Assembly (NCBI GenBank): GCA_018399535.1
Contig: JAGYOR010000009.1
Span: 1 to 32,960, forward strand
Reading direction: 5' to 3'
Length of the DNA: 32,960 nucleotides
Source of the DNA: Deltaproteobacteria bacterium
GTDB lineage: Bacteria; Desulfobacterota; Syntrophia; Syntrophales; UBA2210
The position numbers and the translations under genes are program-made. This document shows positions 11,688 through 20,038 of this stretch, piece by piece (within the stretch, counting starts at the first letter, position 1; each line of letters starts with the position of its first letter). Below the pieces are notes generated by a model. The model saw only the letters and a program-made list of their open reading frames with translations. It did not search any database and had not been told where the DNA came from.

Positions 11688-12605
11688 ATGGCGCGTGAAA
11701 TTTATGACGATATTTTTTTGATAGACCTCGATCAGCCGCGCCGGGGGTTCAAAAAGTTCATAAGCAGCTGGCTGGTGCGTCGTGAAGGGACAACGATGCT
11801 CATCGACCCCGGCCCCTCGTCGACCATTCAGCACCTGGAAGAGGAACTGGACGCCCTTGCCGTCAAGAAAATCGATTTTGTCCTCATCACCCATATTCAC
11901 ATAGATCACGTTGGGGGGCTGGGCCACCTGCTGGAGAGACATCCGGAAACCCGGGTGGTTTGCAAACCTTCCAGCGTCAGGCACCTGACCGATCCATCGA
12001 AACTTGCAGCCGCTTCGCGGGAAGCTCTGGGGGATGTGGCCGACCTGTACGGAAATATCAAGCCCAGTCCCGGGACGGCGTTTCTTGACAAGCACGAGGC
12101 GGAACGGGTCGGAATATTCGAGACAGTTGAAACGCCGGGGCATGCTTCACATCACCGGTGTTACCGGGTGGAGGACATTCTGTTTGTCGGAGAGGCGGCG
12201 GGAGTCCTGTATCCTCACGAAACCGGTCCGTATCTGCGTCTCGCGTCGCCGGCCCCCTTTTTCTACGACGTGTACCGATCGTCGCTCCTGAAAGCGGCGG
12301 CGATTGATGTTTCTCATCTCTGCTTCGCGCATTACGGGTTCTGCGACAGCCCGGCCCGTCTCTTTGACGCCGCCCTGAACCAGCTCGATCTCTGGGTTTC
12401 ACTGGTGGAAAAACGGATGAACACCGGTGGAAGTGATGAGCTGTTCGAAGACATTGTTTTCGAGGATGTGCTAAGGCAGGATCCGGCCATGACGCTTTAT
12501 CGAAAATTGCCCGGCGATGTGCAGGAGCGGGAACGGTTTTTTGCCGTCAAGAGCATTCGCGGTATTCGCGGATGGATCATGAAAAACGGCACGGTCAGGC
12601 GATGA
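11688..12605 (+). CDS. Metallo-beta-lactamase-fold hydrolase
   Basis: The protein has 305 residues. It carries the metal-binding signature THIHIDHVGG (H69, H71, D73, H74), a further histidine H152 in ETPGHASHH and a late histidine H215 in CFAHYGFCD. These are the expected ligands of a two-metal hydrolase of the glyoxalase II / lactonase type; the substrate is unknown. The usual bridging aspartate (LF.GD) is replaced by E169 in LFVGEAAG, which is worth noting because that residue contacts both metals. The C-terminal 80 residues form a helical region. The ribosome site (AAAGGAG near 11665-11671) is rather far, about 16 bases, from the ATG, but no better start is in frame. The last 11 bases overlap the tail of the convergent rod-like gene. 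Confidence 0.87.
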   Translation: MAREIYDDIFLIDLDQPRRGFKKFISSWLVRREGTTMLIDPGPSSTIQHLEEELDALAVKKIDFVLITHIHIDHVGGLGHLLERHPETRVVCKPSSVRHLTDPSKLAAASREALGDVADLYGNIKPSPGTAFLDKHEAERVGIFETVETPGHASHHRCYRVEDILFVGEAAGVLYPHETGPYLRLASPAPFFYDVYRSSLLKAAAIDVSHLCFAHYGFCDSPARLFDAALNQLDLWVSLVEKRMNTGGSDELFEDIVFEDVLRQDPAMTLYRKLPGDVQERERFFAVKSIRGIRGWIMKNGTVRR

Positions 12606-12936
12606 CGTCCATGAGCGCGTGTTTCGTTTCGTCTTCCGCGCGCACCGTCGCGATCACGGCTTCATACGCGTGGAGCGTTGTGATAAGCCGGGCGCATTCT
12701 TCGTGAAGATTCACGTTTGAAGATCCGGTCTCCGTCTCGACCGTCCGGTCGGGATATGCGCGGGCCCTTTCCCCGCTGTTTCCTTCTATGGACACTGTCA
12801 CGCCGCCGGCACGGGCCTCGTGAAAAAGAACGCGGTTTTTCTCAAAACCGTCGGTACAGGCGTTGGCGGTGTTGTGGGCGATTACATTCATTGCGACGCC
12901 GAGGGCACTGAGTGCGGTCGCAGGTACCGAAGACAT
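12595..12936 (-). CDS. Orphan flagellar basal-body rod-like protein (FlgB/FlgC type)
   Basis: The protein has 113 residues. The N-terminus, SALGVAMNVIAHNTANACTD, is the flagellar rod/hook helix (normally LNVIANNIANANT). The C-terminus (SNVNLHEECARLITTLHAYEAVI) resembles the SNVDL.EEM..LI...RAYEAN end of FlgC, FlgE and FlgG. It is shorter than FlgC (about 140 residues) because the middle is reduced to one short beta-rich part. A good AAGGAGA ribosome site precedes the ATG. No other flagellar gene is nearby, so it is an orphan. It may be an export-dependent rod homologue with another role, or part of a flagellum encoded elsewhere. A cysteine replaces one helix residue (NACTD), as is sometimes seen in such stand-alone versions. 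Confidence 0.8.
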   Translation of the reverse strand: MSSVPATALSALGVAMNVIAHNTANACTDGFEKNRVLFHEARAGGVTVSIEGNSGERARAYPDRTVETETGSSNVNLHEECARLITTLHAYEAVIATVRAEDETKHALMDVIA

Positions 12937-12965
12937 AGAACCGCGTCTCCTTCCACGCTTATTCT

Positions 12966-12977
12966 GATACTAGTATC
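12966..12977. promoter_or_regulatory. Perfect 12-bp palindrome upstream of the rod-like gene
   Basis: GATACTAGTATC reads the same on both strands and lies 30 bases upstream of the ATG at 12936. It could be an operator half-pair or part of the promoter. No copy is evident elsewhere in the window by eye. Confidence 0.35.
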
Positions 12978-12988
12978 GACCGATGGAT

Positions 12989-13015
12989 AAAAAAACTTGA
13001 CAGGCATCGTCCGTC
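12989..13015 (-). terminator. Weak candidate terminator after sufB
   Basis: On the minus strand, a short stem (13011-13015 with CCTGTC at 12999-13004, including a G-T pair) is followed by three bases and then seven T residues (plus A 12989-12995). It lies 25 bases after the sufB stop. The stem is only about 5 bp. Confidence 0.4.
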
Positions 13016-13039
13016 GGTTTGTTGATCCCGGCGGCGATT

Positions 13040-14257
13040 TTACAGCAGGTCTTCTCTGCTCATATCGACGGCGCGGTCGATTTCTTTCTGCAGAGGAGCG
13101 GGAAGGCCGGGAATATCAACACTGAGGAATCCCCTGACAATTGTGGCTGTCGCTTCGTCCTCCGTCAGGCCGCGCGACATGAGATAAAAAATTTCTTCCT
13201 GTGCGATTTTTCCCACCGCGGCTTCATGAGACATTTCGACGCCGTCGACCTTTCCCACGAGTTCCGGAATGGCGTGGATCATGCCCTGGTTGAGAATCAA
13301 ACCGCGGCATTCGAGATGACCCCGCGCGCCCGGTACTTCTCCCACGAGATCGCCACGGGCCAAAATGTTTCCCCCGTTGGAAATAGCCCTGGAAATGATT
13401 TCGGCGCGTGTATCCTCCGCCTTCAGGTCTATGCCGCCTCCCGCGTCCAGCTCCCCGCCGGGGCTTCCCACGAGAAGGCTGTAGAAACGTGCCACGGCGC
13501 CCTTGCCGACCAGCGAGGTTCGGGGATACGTCTGCAGCGATTTGACCGGCTTCATGCAGATATAGTTGTTGAGAAACAGGCCGCCTTCTTCAACGATGCC
13601 CGCTGAACGGGGCCGGACGGCGACGTCCTCCGCCCAGTGATGAATCATGGTGAAACTCAGTTTGGCGTTTTTCTTGACGTAAAATTCTGAGATGCCCACG
13701 TGGATGCCGCTGGACACGTGCGCGGCGGTCGCGCATCCCGTAATGACGTGGAGTTCCGATCCTTCTTCGGCGATAATGATGTTGTGTACGTTCTGGCTGA
13801 ACCCGTCCTTTTCGAGATACATGCAGGCCTGGGCCGGGAAGGTGATCCTGGCGCCTGGAAGGGCCCTGATAAGGTACCCGTTGTGAAGATCCAGGCGGGC
13901 CCTGGCGGTATACTTATCGGTGTCAACGTCTATCAGCTTCCAGTAATAATCGGCGAGCCAGTCAAATTTTTCCAGAGCTTCCCGAATGGGAACAATCTCG
14001 AGTCCTTCTTGCAGAGACGCAGTGAAGACCGGAACACCGTCCTTCTGAATATAAGAACCAGAACGTTCTCCGGTGTCGCTTTCTATGCCGGCGAGGAGCA
14101 TGCGCTCCTTGTCCCCGTCAGACAGGCGTGCGAGATCGCTGATCGCTTCATGAGGGGGGGACTCAATAGTGTATGAGTCCAGGTCTATATCGGGCCCGAG
14201 GTCGGCCGCTTTTTGCCGCGCCGAGCGGGCCTTGTCGTCTAGGTCTCGGATCCGCAT
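13040..14257 (-). CDS. sufB: SufB/SufD-family Fe-S assembly scaffold (SmsB-like)
   Basis: The protein has 405 residues from the ATG at 14257 and is shorter than E. coli SufB. It keeps the two residues that matter on the SufB scaffold: a cysteine in LECRGLIL (C317, matching SufB C405) and the histidine-glutamate in MSHEAAVGKI (H344/E345, matching H433/E434). It lies directly downstream of, and overlaps by 19 bases, the SufC gene, with no sufD, sufS, sufE or sufU beside it. This two-gene set matches the minimal SMS (SmsC-SmsB) systems described in anaerobes and archaea. An in-frame GTG at 14266 is an alternative start, but GAGGAG lies eight bases before the ATG. It probably assembles 4Fe-4S clusters with SufC in the cytoplasm. 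Confidence 0.9.
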   Translation of the reverse strand: MRIRDLDDKARSARQKAADLGPDIDLDSYTIESPPHEAISDLARLSDGDKERMLLAGIESDTGERSGSYIQKDGVPVFTASLQEGLEIVPIREALEKFDWLADYYWKLIDVDTDKYTARARLDLHNGYLIRALPGARITFPAQACMYLEKDGFSQNVHNIIIAEEGSELHVITGCATAAHVSSGIHVGISEFYVKKNAKLSFTMIHHWAEDVAVRPRSAGIVEEGGLFLNNYICMKPVKSLQTYPRTSLVGKGAVARFYSLLVGSPGGELDAGGGIDLKAEDTRAEIISRAISNGGNILARGDLVGEVPGARGHLECRGLILNQGMIHAIPELVGKVDGVEMSHEAAVGKIAQEEIFYLMSRGLTEDEATATIVRGFLSVDIPGLPAPLQKEIDRAVDMSREDLL

Positions 14258-15000
14258 CGCACACACTCCTCGTAGCCCACGGATTTTATCTGCTTGAATA
14301 TTTCGACTGGATTGCTTTTGCAGGCCAGTACGCCGTCATAGAGAACTTGTCCCTGGTCGGCCGTCACGTAGTCCAGTATAAACCCCGTGTGGGTAATAAC
14401 CAGTCCCATGCGTGATCTGGCTTTTTTAATCTCTTTGACTGATTTGTCTTTTGTCGGTGTGTTATCCCGTTCAAGCAGTTCGTTAATCATATTACCGATC
14501 AGGACGATATTTTCGAGGTCGACGCCCGATTCGGGTTCGTCGAAGAGCAACAGGTCCGGTTTTTGTGCCATGAGCTGCAGCAGCTCCGACCGTTTGATTT
14601 CGCCCCCGGAAAATCCCACGTTAATATCCCGGTCAAGAAAACTGTTCATGTTGATTCTTCCGGCCAGGGAGTCGACATCGGCGCCGTCGCCGGCGCATAT
14701 TTCAACCATGTGCCTGGTTTTCAGACCCTTGATGCTGGGCGGTCTCTGGTAGGACATGCCGATACCCAGGCGGGCGCGTTCATCAATCGGCATGTTGGTG
14801 ATATCTTCGCCCTTGAAGTATATTTTCCCGTACGTAACCCGGTACTGGGGATACCCCATAATGGTCATGATCAGCGAGGTTTTCCCGGAACCATTGGGTC
14901 CGAAGAGAATATGAGTTTCTCCCGGCCGGATTTCCAGGTCGATGTGCTTCAACAACTCCTTGTCGCCCATCATGACTTGAAGGTCTTCTATGACAAGCAT
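14239..15000 (-). CDS. sufC: SufC-type Fe-S assembly ATPase (SmsC-like)
   Basis: This 253-residue soluble ABC ATPase has Walker A GPNGSGKT at 34-41, a Q-loop in SYQRPPSIKG, the signature FSGGEIKRSELLQL and Walker B LLLFDEPESGVDLEN. The signature and the E-S-G-V-D-L pattern are those of SufC, not of transport ATPases. It energises cluster assembly on the SufB scaffold encoded by the overlapping downstream gene. An insertion with Lys/Asp residues (NTPTKDKSVKEIKKARSRM) after Walker B is longer than in E. coli SufC and resembles the archaeal/anaerobe versions. It is the first gene of the operon and has a good sigma-70-like promoter upstream at 15090-15117. Confidence 0.94.
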   Translation of the reverse strand: MLVIEDLQVMMGDKELLKHIDLEIRPGETHILFGPNGSGKTSLIMTIMGYPQYRVTYGKIYFKGEDITNMPIDERARLGIGMSYQRPPSIKGLKTRHMVEICAGDGADVDSLAGRINMNSFLDRDINVGFSGGEIKRSELLQLMAQKPDLLLFDEPESGVDLENIVLIGNMINELLERDNTPTKDKSVKEIKKARSRMGLVITHTGFILDYVTADQGQVLYDGVLACKSNPVEIFKQIKSVGYEECVRCGSET

Positions 15001-15064
15001 GAACCAGTTCCTTGAAAGGCGGCCACACTGTCACCGCCGGTTTTTTCATTCATATTGTTGTCTT

Positions 15065-15089
15065 GCGCCCCGCCGTTTCGACGGGGCGC
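15065..15089 (-). promoter_or_regulatory. Inverted repeat at the suf transcription start (candidate operator)
   Basis: GCGCCCCG and CGGGGCGC form perfect 8-bp arms around a short centre, immediately downstream of the -10 box of the suf promoter. The transcript would start inside the repeat. It could be a repressor site, for example for an Rrf2/IscR-type regulator, or a 5' mRNA hairpin. No T run follows on the minus strand, so it is not a terminator. Confidence 0.45.
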
Positions 15090-15117
15090 ATCATACGTTG
15101 CCATCCGGTAAAGTCAA
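15090..15117 (-). promoter_or_regulatory. Sigma-70-like promoter of sufC-sufB
   Basis: On the minus strand, TTGACT (15112-15117) and TATGAT (15090-15095) are separated by 16 bases, each matching the consensus at 5 of 6 positions. The sufC ATG is at 15000, leaving a leader of roughly 80 bases. Confidence 0.7.
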
Positions 15118-15140
15118 GTATTTTTCGTCTTCATGCCGGA

Positions 15141-15166
15141 TCGGTGGACCGTATCGGGTCCACCGA
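15141..15166. terminator. Strong stem-loop after the lipoprotein gene
   Basis: A perfect 10-bp stem (15141-15150 with 15157-15166) with a 6-base loop lies 34 bases past the lipoprotein stop. The T tract (15174-15181) is on the plus-strand side, so as an intrinsic terminator it points to plus-strand transcripts; for the minus-strand lipoprotein it is preceded by an A tract. It probably separates the lipoprotein gene from the suf promoter. Confidence 0.5.
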
Positions 15167-15199
15167 CCATAATATTTTTTTGCACACCGACAATGCGGT

Positions 15200-15778
15200 T
15201 TAGCGGGGCCGCTTGTCGACGATTTTCCCCAGTTTTATGCCGAGCCAGTCTTTCAGTTGCTGGGCGCCCGCGGATTCTTTGATGATGAAGTCTGTTTCAG
15301 CCGACTGGCCGGAAAGCATCGCCGTGGCGCGGGCGGTATAAACACCGGGCGGTACCGGAGGTTTTGTGAGGACCACAAATTGGTTGTAACTGCCGTCCTC
15401 GTCATAACTGCCGCTTATATTGGCACGAAGAATTCCCGTTACTTTGGCCAGCGGACTGGCGACTGTCCGGAATGTTCCATCGGCTTCAACGGTGTCGTTC
15501 GCAAGGGCCGCGTCCGTGTCCCCGGGTCCGATAAGAGATATGAACACCGAGTCTTCCGGTTTAAATCCCGATCCTTCAAAAACGATGTCCGTTCCCGCAA
15601 CATTGGCTACGCCGAGGCGTATGGAAGCAGGGTTGACAATAAGCTGGGGATCGGTAATGTCGGGATTGAGCTGCATGGGCGTCGTTGAACAACCGGAGAG
15701 AAACAAACTTCCCGCGAGAGCGACAATACCCGTTGCGACCAGTACCTTCGAGAAAGATTTCATACGCCTGCCAGACAT
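15200..15778 (-). CDS. Putative lipoprotein
   Basis: The protein has 192 residues. A basic N-terminus (SGRRMKSFSK) is followed by a hydrophobic stretch and the lipobox LSGC with C30 as the lipidated residue, so it should be exported and anchored to a membrane. The mature part is mostly beta-type (LGVANVAGTDIVFEGSGFKPEDSVFISL, then PGVYTARATAMLSGQSAETDFII) and looks like one or two Ig/IPT-like sandwich domains. It ends in a short charged helix (QQLKDWLGIKLGKIVDKRPR). The family is not recognised. The start at 15778 has an excellent AAGGAGG ribosome site six bases away; the M at residue 6 is less likely. Confidence 0.82.
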   Translation of the reverse strand: MSGRRMKSFSKVLVATGIVALAGSLFLSGCSTTPMQLNPDITDPQLIVNPASIRLGVANVAGTDIVFEGSGFKPEDSVFISLIGPGDTDAALANDTVEADGTFRTVASPLAKVTGILRANISGSYDEDGSYNQFVVLTKPPVPPGVYTARATAMLSGQSAETDFIIKESAGAQQLKDWLGIKLGKIVDKRPR

Positions 15779-15794
15779 GGTGCCCCTCCTTTTT

Positions 15795-16016
15795 TTAAAA
15801 GTTTATGCTGCCTTCAGAGTATGATGAACCTGCCATGAAATAGAAAATCAGCGGATCCGGCAGGGCATCCCTGTTCACGAAGGACCATTTCAGGCCGGTG
15901 GTGATCATTTTTTTCAGTCCCGGCAGAAACAGGTCCTCCCGCCAGCAGTGCCGGCGGGAAACTTGTTGCGTAAGCGTAACGACACGCCCCCGCCCCATGT
16001 GCCATTCAGCAACCAT
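15795..16016 (-). CDS. Doubtful small ORF upstream of the lipoprotein gene
   Basis: An ATG at 16016 opens a 73-codon frame ending 16 bases before the lipoprotein start. The peptide looks protein-like (VVTLTQQVSRRHCWREDL, then DALPDPLIFYFMAGSSYSEG) but I do not recognise it. GGAGG lies about 15 bases before the ATG, which is far. The frame also continues upstream to 16106 without a better start. It may be a small gene in the lipoprotein transcript or the tail of a decayed larger gene. The rest of the 15779-16143 gap shows nothing further. Confidence 0.3.
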   Translation of the reverse strand: MVAEWHMGRGRVVTLTQQVSRRHCWREDLFLPGLKKMITTGLKWSFVNRDALPDPLIFYFMAGSSYSEGSINF

Positions 16017-16143
16017 TATGCCACGTTGCTGCCTCCGAAAAATAATTAAAGACGTGAATACAGCGTAAATATTTAAATCACGCCCGGTTTCGTTTGTCAA
16101 TGTCATTTCAGTATGTTGCCGACGCCGTGCCCGTTTCCCCGCG

Positions 16144-16932
16144 TTACCGCTGCTTCAGCGGAGACCCTTCGAGGAAGCGGGACTGCAGGCGTTGCATTCC
16201 CCGTATCCACCGGTCATAATCGGCCGCCTTGCGTTGCATGTAGGTTTTCACCTCGGGATGAGGAAGAATGAGGAACGTTTCTTCCCGGAGTCCCTGTATT
16301 ACCACGTCAGCAAGTTCCTCCGGTTCCATGAGGCCGTCAACGGCTGCCACGCCGCCCCCTTCATGTTGCTGCGTCATGTTCGAACGCACTGCCTGGGGAC
16401 AAAGGGCGAACGTTTGAATGCCCTGGCCGCCGTACGTGATGGCTATGTTTTCCGCAAGGCCGACCGCCGCGTGTTTCGTCACCGAATAGGGAGCCGATCC
16501 GATCTGACTGAGCAACCCGGCGGCTGATGCGGTTATCATCAGCGCTCCGCCGCCCCGTTCGATCATGCGTGGAACCAGCGCACGTCCCACGTATACGTGT
16601 GCCATGACATTGATTTCCCAGATTTTCTGCCATTCGTCATTGGGAACCTCCACGCCGCCGATGGCAATGATGCCGGCATTGGAGCAGAAGAGATCTATCG
16701 GTCCTATTTCACTTTCAGTCCGCTCGATCAGGTCGATGACGTCCTGTTCGTTGCGTACATCGCAACGCGCGGCAACGCCCCTGATTTCACTGGCGACGGC
16801 GCGTGCTCCCTCTTCATCGACATCGGCGGCAATAACGGATTTCGCCCCTTCCGCCGCGAACCTTCTGCAAAGGGCCTGCCCTATGCCGCTTGCGCCGCCC
16901 GTAACGACGACGATTTTTCCCGTAATGTCCAT
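16144..16932 (-). CDS. SDR-family oxidoreductase
   Basis: This 262-residue classical short-chain dehydrogenase is distinct from the one at 5104-5892. It has the cofactor motif TGGASGIG at 11-18, an acidic residue after strand 2 (AADVDEEGA) favouring NAD, SNAG at 84-87 in place of NNAG, and the catalytic S136, Y149 and K153 (SAPYSVTKHAA). The tail (FLILPHPEVKTYMQRKAADYDRWIRGMQRLQ) is longer than in FabG and resembles SDRs linked to fatty- or aromatic-acid metabolism; the substrate is unknown. AGGAGGT lies eight bases before the ATG. It is separated from the lipoprotein gene by 365 bases, so it is probably its own unit. Confidence 0.9.
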   Translation of the reverse strand: MDITGKIVVVTGGASGIGQALCRRFAAEGAKSVIAADVDEEGARAVASEIRGVAARCDVRNEQDVIDLIERTESEIGPIDLFCSNAGIIAIGGVEVPNDEWQKIWEINVMAHVYVGRALVPRMIERGGGALMITASAAGLLSQIGSAPYSVTKHAAVGLAENIAITYGGQGIQTFALCPQAVRSNMTQQHEGGGVAAVDGLMEPEELADVVIQGLREETFLILPHPEVKTYMQRKAADYDRWIRGMQRLQSRFLEGSPLKQR

Positions 16933-17145
16933 AGTGAAACCTCCTGAACTCTGAATGGGCGGTTTTTCTGAATATGAGTCACCGCGCGGTTTTTACGAAA
17001 AAGGTTATTTCATTAAAAGTGGTAAAATGCAACCGTTTGAACTCCCCGACCGGATTATGATGTGCCTTTTTTTACAGTATGCCGGTCGTCAAAATCGGCG
17101 GCGACCGCGGCGAATGGCGGAAAAACATTGCAATAGGAGCTCATG

Positions 17146-17265
17146 ATGTTTAAGATTTTTTCCTTGAATACACCGGCCGTGACTGCCGGGACAGGCGTTT
17201 CCCCGATGCCGGTTCAACGGCGTGCGGCAAAAAACCGTCCGATGAGGGAGATATCGAATCGATGA
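17146..17265 (+). CDS. Small leader ORF coupled to larC
   Basis: This is a 39-codon frame starting at the second of two tandem ATGs (17143 and 17146). AGGAG lies six bases before the second one. Its TGA (17263-17265) overlaps the larC ATG (17262-17264) as ATGA, the classic arrangement for translational coupling. The peptide (MFKIFSLNTPAVTAG..., ending MREISNR) has no signal sequence or metal motif and is not recognised. It may act as a leader whose translation controls larC rather than as a functional protein. The remaining upstream gap (16933-17145) shows no supported gene; it contains a CGACCGG/CCGGTCG pair around a T-rich loop near 17050-17090. Confidence 0.45.
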   Translation: MFKIFSLNTPAVTAGTGVSPMPVQRRAAKNRPMREISNR

Positions 17266-18482
17266 AAATTCTGTATTACGATTGCTTCGCCGGCATAAGC
17301 GGAGACATGAATCTGGGCGCCATGATTGACCTGGGCGTCGACCCGGCCTTTCTTGTCGAGTCGCTGCGCGCCCTCGATATTTCCGGATACGAACTGGCGA
17401 TATCTCGACAGTCGCGCCGGGGAATCACGGGAACGAAGGTCGATGTCGTTCTTTCGGAGCATGACGGTGCGGGACACGGCCATCACGAACGGAAACTCGA
17501 CGATATCAGAAAAATCCTGACAGCCGCCGCCCTGTCGGACGGAGTCCGCCAACGAAGCCTCCGCATGTTCGAGACCATCGCCCGGGCGGAGTCGAAGGTA
17601 CACGGCATCGATATCAACGCCGTTCATTTTCACGAGGTCGGCGCCGTCGACGCGATCGTCGATATCGTGGGCGCAGCGCTCTGTTTTGAATATCTCGGGG
17701 TTGACCGAGTGGTTGCGTCATCCGTGGAACTGGGCGGCGGATTCGTCAATTGCGCTCATGGAACGTTGCCGGTACCGGCTCCCGCCACCGTCGAGATACT
17801 GAAGGGCGTTCCGGTCAGGACGGGAGGGGCGCCTCATGAAATGACAACGCCTACCGGTGCGGCCGTTCTGGTTTCACTGGCCGATACGTTCAGCGACAGC
17901 ATGTCCTTTCGCCTTCTGGACGTTGGGTACGGTATCGGGACACGCGACACGGAAATTCCCAATGTGCTGAGAGTGATGCTGGGCGAAGACAGTGAGGATC
18001 GTTCCGCCGCCGGTCGCGAGTCGGGAGAGGTGTGGCTGGTGGAATGCAACATCGATGACATGAACCCCGAGTTGTACGAACACGTTCTCGACAGGCTTTT
18101 TGAAGAAGGGGCGCGCGATGCCTTTATGACGCCGATTGTCATGAAAAAATCACGACCCGCGGTCGTACTTTCCGTGTTGTGCGACACAGATCAGCTGGCC
18201 GGCGTCGAGGAAATCGTGCTCACGGAAACGACGACCCTCGGTCTCAGGAAACAGCGTTTGTCCCGGACGACGCTTCGTCGGGACGCCGACTCTGTCATGA
18301 CGGATTACGGAGAGGTCAGGATCAAAAGGACGTTCCGTGGGAACGAGCTTGTCACGTGGAAGCCCGAATACGAAGATTGCCGGAACATCGCCCGCGAAAA
18401 AGGAGTGAGCATTCAGGACGTGTACGGCGCTGTCGAACGAGCGTTTGCGCAGCGGGACGACGGGACGGAGCAATCGAAATAG
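17262..18482 (+). CDS. larC: Nickel-insertion protein LarC (nickel-pincer cofactor synthesis)
   Basis: This 406-residue protein has the LarC N-terminal signature YYDCFAGISGDMNLGAMIDLG and a His-rich stretch soon after (HDGAGHGHHE). The middle segment HFHEVGAVDAIVDIVGAA and the C-terminal part VECNIDDMNPELYEHV are also typical. LarC inserts nickel into the sulfur-modified nicotinate-derived nucleotide in the last step of nickel-pincer cofactor synthesis, consuming CTP. Unlike the Lactobacillus plantarum gene, which is split into larC1/larC2 by a frameshift, this copy is one uninterrupted frame. AGGGAG about ten bases upstream serves the ATG, and the small ORF at 17146 is coupled to it. larE follows after 12 bases. 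Confidence 0.95.
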   Translation: MKILYYDCFAGISGDMNLGAMIDLGVDPAFLVESLRALDISGYELAISRQSRRGITGTKVDVVLSEHDGAGHGHHERKLDDIRKILTAAALSDGVRQRSLRMFETIARAESKVHGIDINAVHFHEVGAVDAIVDIVGAALCFEYLGVDRVVASSVELGGGFVNCAHGTLPVPAPATVEILKGVPVRTGGAPHEMTTPTGAAVLVSLADTFSDSMSFRLLDVGYGIGTRDTEIPNVLRVMLGEDSEDRSAAGRESGEVWLVECNIDDMNPELYEHVLDRLFEEGARDAFMTPIVMKKSRPAVVLSVLCDTDQLAGVEEIVLTETTTLGLRKQRLSRTTLRRDADSVMTDYGEVRIKRTFRGNELVTWKPEYEDCRNIAREKGVSIQDVYGAVERAFAQRDDGTEQSK

Positions 18483-18494
18483 AAGGGAGCCTTC

Positions 18495-19280
18495 ATGCCA
18501 GGTGATCTTGCGGCACTCAAGCGGCGGTTGAAAGAACTCGGATCATGCGTGGTCGCCTTTTCCGGAGGGACGGACAGCGCCTTCCTGCTCGACTGCGCCA
18601 GGGAGGTGCTGGGGGACAGGGTATCCGCAGTAACCGTTTTCGCGCCTTACACGTTGAAGCGCGATATCAGGCGGGCCGGCAGTATCGCCGAGGCGTTGCG
18701 GGTGCCGCACCTGAATGTTGATATCCCCCTTCCGGATGCTCTCCGGTATAATCCCCGAAATCGATGCTATATCTGCAAGAACGAGATGTTTACCCTGGTC
18801 AGGAAGGAAGCGTCCAGGGTGGGTGCCGGGCATGTGCTGGACGGGACCGTTGCCGACGACGATGAAGCGCTGCGTCCCGGCATGAAAGCACTCAAAGAAC
18901 AGGAAATCCTGAGTCCGCTTTACGAATGCGGTTTTTCGAAGGCGGATGTCATTGATCAGTTGAATGAACGGGGCAGGGAAGCCTGGATACATTCCCCCGA
19001 TTCATGTCTCCTGACGCGTCTGCCGTTCGGCAGGGAAGTAATCGCGGAGGAACTTGCCCGGATCGAGATGGCGGAAGAATATCTCCTGTCCGGTGGCGTC
19101 GACCCGGTGAGAGTCAGAAGCGACGGGACAACGGCCCGCATCGAGGCGGGGCGGGACTGCAGGCGATTGTTCTTTTCGGAGGAACGGATGAATGAAATAG
19201 CGGCGCAGCTGAAAAAATTCGGATTCCGGCACGTGTCCCTCGATCTCGAGGGCTACCGGTCCGGCGGCGTGGACGACTGA
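18495..19280 (+). CDS. larE: ATP-dependent sulfur transferase LarE
   Basis: The protein has 261 residues. The PP-loop FSGGTDSAFLLD at 23-34 binds ATP to adenylate the cofactor precursor. C171 in SPDSCLLTRLPFG aligns with the sacrificial C176 of L. plantarum LarE, which donates its own sulfur to the nucleotide. C91 and C94 (NRCYICKNEMF) are a conserved pair in the family. Only one cysteine lies in the active-site loop, consistent with the sacrificial rather than the Fe-S-recycling type, though I cannot exclude other cysteines (C145, C222) taking part. AAGGGAG lies six bases before the ATG. It sits between larC and larB on the same strand. Confidence 0.94.
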   Translation: MPGDLAALKRRLKELGSCVVAFSGGTDSAFLLDCAREVLGDRVSAVTVFAPYTLKRDIRRAGSIAEALRVPHLNVDIPLPDALRYNPRNRCYICKNEMFTLVRKEASRVGAGHVLDGTVADDDEALRPGMKALKEQEILSPLYECGFSKADVIDQLNERGREAWIHSPDSCLLTRLPFGREVIAEELARIEMAEEYLLSGGVDPVRVRSDGTTARIEAGRDCRRLFFSEERMNEIAAQLKKFGFRHVSLDLEGYRSGGVDD

Positions 19281-19291
19281 AGGGGGCGCCG

Positions 19292-20038
19292 GTGAAAGAC
19301 GACCTGGAAGAGATTCTTCGCGACGTACGGAACGGAATACTTGATGTCGACGACGCCGTCGCACGCATTCGCGAACGTGATTATAAAGATCTGGGTTTCG
19401 CGAAAATCGACAATCAGCGCCCGGCCCGGCAGGGTCGACCGGAAGTGGTATTCTGCGAGGGGAAAACCGTCGTCCAGGTCCGGGAGATCGTGCGGCACAT
19501 GCTGACGCGCGATACGAATATAATGGCCACGCGCGCCACGGCCGAAATGTATGAAGCGGTGGCCGCCCTGTGCGGCGATGCGCGGTTCAACGAAACCGCC
19601 CGGATCATAACGATACGGCGCGGCCGGCAGGACACAGTTAATACGCGTATCGCCGTGGTTACCGCCGGAACGTCCGATCTTCCCGTCGCCGAGGAAGCGG
19701 CGGTGATAGCCGAAATGCTGGGAAACCCGGTCGACCGGGTGGTGGACGTGGGCGTCGCCGGCATACACCGGCTCTTCGGCGCCCTTGGCATCATCCGTCG
19801 CGCCAGGGTCGTCATCGTCGTGGCCGGAATGGAGGGAGCGTTGCCGAGCGTCGTGGGAGGACTCGTTGACAAGCCGGTCATCGCCGTTCCCACCAGTGTC
19901 GGTTACGGCGCAAGCTTCGGCGGGCTGGCGGCGCTCCTGGGTATGCTCAACAGCTGCGCCGGCGGCGTGGCCGTCGTTAATATCGACAACGGTTACGGCG
20001 CAGCCTGCGTGGCAAGCGCCATAAACCACCTTGCCTAG
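19292..20038 (+). CDS. larB: Nickel-pincer cofactor synthase LarB
   Basis: This 248-residue protein begins at a GTG, with AGGGGG six bases upstream. LarB carboxylates and hydrolyses nicotinic acid adenine dinucleotide to start the pathway. The N-terminal part is helical; the C-terminal half is the PurE-like domain (VVTAGTSDLPVAEEAAV, AGMEGALPSVVGGLVDKPVIAVPTS, then GYGASFGGLAALLGMLNSCAGGVAVVNIDNG). C222 in NSCAGG matches the covalent-intermediate cysteine C221 of L. plantarum LarB. The gene is 11 bases after larE and is followed by a LUD-domain gene, completing the three synthesis genes of the cofactor. LarA, the apoenzyme, is not in the window. Confidence 0.95.
   Translation: MKDDLEEILRDVRNGILDVDDAVARIRERDYKDLGFAKIDNQRPARQGRPEVVFCEGKTVVQVREIVRHMLTRDTNIMATRATAEMYEAVAALCGDARFNETARIITIRRGRQDTVNTRIAVVTAGTSDLPVAEEAAVIAEMLGNPVDRVVDVGVAGIHRLFGALGIIRRARVVIVVAGMEGALPSVVGGLVDKPVIAVPTSVGYGASFGGLAALLGMLNSCAGGVAVVNIDNGYGAACVASAINHLA

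Follow-up and report, generated by a model that had tools for sequence, protein, structure and literature searches.

The inverted repeat at the presumed start point of the sufC-sufB operon in the window (the whole 32,960-nucleotide stretch of DNA analyzed here) is most likely an incidental or very young dyad that coincides with an ordinary promoter. We give somewhat better than an even chance to the fuller form of this reading, in which a sigma-70-type promoter has a GC-rich discriminator and the dyad is lineage-specific, probably incidental, and without a dedicated protein. This preference is based on a promoter that is kept in a congener (G001), a dyad that is limited to 2 of 49 sufC upstream regions, a palindrome that shows little excess in the window's genome (G000) and in a relative (G004), and a leader that folds no better than shuffled sequences (z = −0.15, from 15083).

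The features are listed in Table 1. On the minus strand, TATGAT is followed without a gap by GCGCCCCG TCGAAACGG CGGGGCGC (15089–15065), and the full dyad reads GCGCCCCGTCG-AAA-CGGCGGGGCGC (15064–15090). In the inverted-repeat listing, its arms (15064–15075 and 15079–15090) are 12 nt long, 92% complementary, and 3 nt apart. The promoter pair is located 90–117 bases 5′ of the sufC start codon. The sole mismatch of the dyad is a G·U in the sense RNA, which gives a 12-pair stem, whereas the opposite strand has an A/C mismatch. The RNA fold of the dyad has an energy of −24.9 kcal/mol (z = −5.98 against shuffles). The first-pass annotation had noted a −35/−10 pair followed by a GC-rich inverted repeat at this place, and its coordinates and description were correct. 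The pair that it called strong, TTGACT-16-TATGAT, has 10 of 12 matches and is the top of six promoter-like sites in 12000–18500, where shuffled sequences have 2.8 sites on average.

Table 1. Features around the sufC promoter region (positions in the window).
Feature	Position	Strand	Conservation or remark
−35 hexamer TTGACT	15112..15117	-	Aligned hexamer is TTGACT in G004 and GTGACT in G001
−10 hexamer TATGAT, 16-nt spacer	15090..15095	-	TATGAT in G004, TATAAT in G001, spacer equal
Left arm GCGCCCCG, which takes up the discriminator (from the −10 to the presumed start at ~15083)	15082..15089	-	GCACCCCT in G001
Right arm CGGGGCGC	15065..15072	-	G000 and G004 have it intact; G001 does not
Second hairpin, downstream of the lipoprotein-like gene and upstream of the sufC promoter	15141..15166	-	Structure conserved in three genomes
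Small lipoprotein-like gene upstream of sufC (name assigned by eye, from the signal sequence)	15200..15778	-	
sufC (smsC-like) ATPase, C227-X18-C246-X2-C249	14239..15000	-	
sufB (smsB-like); overlaps the sufC end when read from the listed GTG	13040..14266	-	Sole SufBD-core match in the genome

Perfect arms of at least 8 with a GC fraction of at least 0.8 and a loop of 3–12 occur once in the window and 1.1 times on average in shuffles, so that arm length and GC content by themselves do not exceed chance expectation. When the GC requirement is dropped, 11 such repeats are found in the window, against a shuffle mean of 4.9 and maximum of 8. Both strands of a 147,882-base sample of the genome (the window and 14 stretches, three of which were picked for other reasons) contain 159 strand-specific folding peaks at or below −20 kcal/mol, among which the dyad ranks 20th; hairpins as strong therefore occur about once per 14–15 kb of strand. 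The unusual feature of the dyad is its location directly after a −10, which was chosen post hoc. An intrinsic terminator was considered and rejected, because neither strand has a T-run after the repeat, which is also absent from the 14 terminator-like sites listed. Rfam gave no match near sufC up to E 1 and matched only a tRNA in the whole window.

Conservation was examined in 49 distinct sufC upstream regions, which include that of the window and were drawn from part of the relatives (loci of 30, 29, and 10 matches from three match sets). A GC-rich repeat of at least 8 pairs directly after a −10 was found in the regions of G000 and G004 only, and two further regions have a comparable repeat at another place. 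By SufC and lipoprotein identity, G004 is the closest relative among those compared. Conservation of the dyad upstream of sufCB had been set beforehand as a refutation test of the operator, and it does not reach beyond this one close relative. In G004, a loop change in the dyad leaves the stem intact. Between G000 and G004, none of the 22 inner stem positions is changed, whereas 16 of 146 positions in the nearby flanks differ, a count that leaves out the other hairpin (0 of 26 changed); the probability of no change in the stem is ~0.08. In the alignment, the congener G001 retains the promoter, as GTGACT-16-TATAAT, and, in the GCACCCC that follows, the greater part of the left arm. Its right arm is not intact, with gaps at 4 of the 12 positions, and the fold of the dyad region is no better than that of shuffles (z = +0.47, with 134 of 200 as good). 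A shorter outer pairing, CACCC/GGGTG (5 pairs), can be drawn there by eye, but it is not the predicted fold. In G003, TTGACT-16-TATTAT is located 195 bases 5′ of sufC and is followed by CTTTTTCC, with neither arm and no dyad; because this site is not alignable, it is only a possible homologue of the sufC promoter. The discriminator is GC-rich in G000, G004, and G001, whereas CTTTTTCC at the nonaligned site of G003 is not GC-rich, and the upstream region of G002 is not alignable. As judged from the alignable congeners, the candidate promoter is better preserved than the dyad.

The palindrome was also sought elsewhere, with the reversed pattern as the control. GCGCCCCG-N9-CGGGGCGC with at most two mismatches has seven matches in G000 (control, five), six in G004 (five), eight in G001 (four), and none in G003 (four). 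Over 20 genomes, the forward matches total 93 against 73 for the control (added by hand). Taken together, these counts thus indicate at most a slight excess. With up to three mismatches, the palindrome occurs at one other place in G000. A second exact GCGCCCCG-N9-CGGGGCGC in G000 (L083 1177–1201) is flanked by a 47-aa ORF and a gene that by eye looks flavoprotein-like; it is also present at the matching place in G001 and G004, and it has no Rfam match up to E 1. An operator common to the dyad and this second site was rejected, because no −10-like hexamer or promoter-like context is seen there by eye and the gene downstream is unrelated. TATNATGCGCCCC has one exact site, the sufC promoter, and six in all with one mismatch, against four for the control.

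Here, we propose how the element may work. Transcription of sufCB would start from an ordinary promoter of the sigma-70 type, with hexamers 16 nt apart and a GCGCCCC discriminator; use of this promoter is our inference. The left arm would be the discriminator itself: with a presumed start ~7 nt after the −10 (~15083), it is mostly untranscribed DNA. The right arm would belong to the earliest part of the transcript, and the dyad that it forms with the left arm is lineage-specific and probably incidental. Regulation through this element, if any, would most likely be growth-rate control of the ppGpp/DksA type via an unstable open complex. The left-arm discriminator is G or C at all 8 positions, the highest of the 17 promoter-like sites sampled, and the 6-nt stretch from the −10 to the presumed start, GCGCCC, is GC-rich. 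The genome has matches to the RelA/SpoT family (4.9e-45) and to the DksA/TraR zinc-finger family (2.1e-13), both of which are family matches only. Together, the GC-richest discriminator of the 17 and these two families would make growth-rate control the most economical regulatory reading. A 16S gene was sought in the assembly so that the genome's own rRNA promoters could serve as a yardstick, and no match was found.

Growth-rate control by ppGpp and DksA via an unstable open complex is known for promoters with GC-rich discriminators, and rrn P1 of Escherichia coli has a 16-nt spacer and a GCGC discriminator. The sufC promoter resembles these rrn P1-type promoters in the GC-rich stretch directly after the −10, the 16-nt spacer, and the RelA/SpoT and DksA families encoded in the genome. 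It differs from them in that the discriminator is one arm of a dyad, the site in G003 is not GC-rich, and the ppGpp response is putative. In the accessible text of PMC3293720, 6-nt GC-rich discriminators are tied to ppGpp repression and mark many ppGpp-repressed promoters of Salmonella, and a paper on a GCGC discriminator motif is cited. GC-rich discriminators of E. coli rRNA promoters appear in the accessible part of PMC4696680. By analogy, the sufC promoter is possibly ppGpp-responsive, with both the response and the start site predicted. Several sequence observations count against the preferred reading of an ordinary promoter with an incidental dyad, namely the unchanged inner stem between G000 and G004 (P ~0.08), the outer CACCC/GGGTG pairing of G001, the palindrome excess in G001 (8/4) and in the 20 genomes (93/73), and the G003 discriminator that is not GC-rich.

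The first-pass annotation saw in the repeat a candidate operator and suggested looking for an Rrf2-type regulator gene. We regard an operator of the Rrf2 family (IscR- or RisR-like) as extremely improbable. RisR, an Rrf2-family protein of Myxococcus xanthus, represses isc and suf via T(t/g)GAC-N7-GTCC(t/a), according to the accessible text of PMC9973013. The dyad resembles the RisR site at the isc promoter described there in that a palindrome covers the −10/start of a delta-proteobacterial Fe-S assembly operon, and Rrf2 proteins are widespread in the broader group (matches in 34 of 60 relatives, of which 27 exceed the cut-off). The RisR motif in that source is flanked by AT-rich DNA, in contrast to the GC-rich arms here, and no Rrf2 gene was found here. 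Rrf2 (PF02082) has no match in the window's genome, which is 96% complete, so that absence of the gene is likely but not proven; in the control, 13 of 14 genomes matched, 12 over the cut-off. None was found in G004 (80% complete) either. A profile made from the Rrf2 proteins of eight loci in relatives matched those proteins alone among the loci searched with it, and nothing in the sufCB loci among them. G001, which lacks an intact repeat, has one strong Rrf2 match and three weak ones. The RisR motif is absent from the dyad. In 15001–15200, GAC-N7-GTC does not occur with the spacer of 7; one copy with a spacer of 8 lies inside the upstream hairpin. This core is present in 2 of 52 upstream regions, with ~3 expected, and one of the two is in G001, where it overlaps the −35 of sufC. 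The Rrf2/IscR operator was thus discarded for the missing gene, the missing conservation, and the missing motif. The Rrf2 gene of G001 (L071 6727–7170) is next to cysC-, cysD-, and cysN-like genes (sulfate assimilation by eye), a CymR-like setting.

The dyad could instead act at the RNA level. It would then form a hairpin at the 5′ end of the sufCB leader, or within read-through transcripts of the upstream gene, and protect the mRNA or modulate its translation. The 12-pair stem, whose G·U can pair in the sense strand only, and the G004 loop change that keeps the stem are in line with this idea. Moreover, the upstream hairpin has no U-tract on the minus strand, so that read-through into sufCB is possible. 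However, a usual start would keep most of the left arm out of the transcript, a leader beginning at 15083 folds no better than shuffled sequences, the hairpin is not formed in G001, and no Rfam match appears up to E 1; we consider this function rather unlikely. An operator for a non-Rrf2 repressor, whose dimer would cover the start point and block open-complex formation, would fit the near-perfect dyad spanning the inferred start and the unchanged inner stem between G000 and G004. It is distinctly unlikely given that the dyad is present in only 2 of 49 upstream regions, the right arm of G001 is not intact, and the palindrome is barely in excess in the genome; in addition, no −10-like hexamer is seen by eye next to the copy at L083 1177–1201, which precedes an unrelated gene. 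A particular form of this idea seems to us very unlikely, namely that an anaerobe in which no Rrf2 gene was detected has recently evolved a lineage-specific operator, with a non-Rrf2 repressor bound to the GC-rich dyad that spans the start of its SMS-like operon. No description of a non-Rrf2 repressor on a GC-rich dyad of SMS-like operons was found in the accessible portions of the literature searched. With 2 of 49 regions, no Rrf2 match, and no RisR motif, the operator claim, above all in its Rrf2-type form, is not supported.

Upstream of the promoter, the second hairpin is better conserved than the dyad. It is unchanged in G004, and its counterpart in G001 has a paired change from T-A to C-G and, just outside, a change from G·U to G-C. 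In G002 and G046, the same lipoprotein-like gene is followed by different hairpins, and the strongest hairpin of G003 is 268 bases away. The 15141–15166 hairpin is probably the 3′ hairpin of the transcript of the lipoprotein-like gene. It contains TGGAC-N8-GTCCA, with a spacer one base longer than that of the RisR motif, which we treat as a coincidence because no Rrf2 gene was found. At E 0.001, the lipoprotein-like gene itself matched neither Pfam nor NCBIfam. It is present in 6 of the 60 genomes searched (its own included) and adjoins sufC in four of five genomes of the genus; in the fifth, it is on the same contig and strand, ~3.2 kb away. On the plus strand, three consecutive ORFs in 17262–20038 are by eye LarC-, LarE-, and LarB-like (nickel-pincer cofactor genes).

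The operon had been described as the minimal two-gene SMS type. Its gene content agrees with that: sufC and sufB are adjacent, sufD is absent, and the genome has one SufBD-core match. C227, C246, and C249 lie at the C-terminal end of SufC, and this C-X18-C-X2-C pattern is found in 40 of 46 distinct sequences, including that of the window; one of the other six is truncated, and five miss the first Cys yet retain C-X2-C. The type assignment is less firm. The NCBI SmsB model is the top match of SufB, but its 176 bits do not reach the curated cut-off of 650, which is a database threshold and not a biological feature; we therefore call the operon SMS-like rather than SMS. SufC scores 179 bits against TIGR01978, below the cut-off of 212.8. 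Among solved structures, SufB is closest to 4dn7 (E 2.9e-119), followed by MJ0034 (9h7y, 2.6e-23). The best match of SufC is a classical SufC (11mp, 3.7e-37), with MJ0035 third (3.6e-33), so that the structural match does not single out SMS. Taken as predicted from these features, sufC-sufB is a minimal two-gene SMS-like operon. SMS (SmsC2B2) of Methanocaldococcus jannaschii, as described in the accessible text of PMC12192291, is likewise encoded by a two-gene C-B operon without SufD, and its SmsC likewise has three C-terminal Cys residues ending in C-X2-C. The cluster ligands given there are C218, C239, and C242, a C-X20-C spacing compared with C-X18-C here. Unlike that system, the present operon has a bacterial host whose genome also contains a NifU/NifS-like pair, and its SufC is nearest to classical SufC. 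In the window's genome, a NifU-family match is followed by a NifS-like gene (named by eye) on contig C167 (L084 8366–10119), and a second Fe-S assembly system probably coexists with sufCB.

The value of these results is mostly corrective, in that a striking palindrome at a start point does not by itself make an operator. They also document a sufCB operon of SMS-like type whose genome yielded no Rrf2 regulator. Comparison with congeners is what tells the kept promoter from the unkept dyad.
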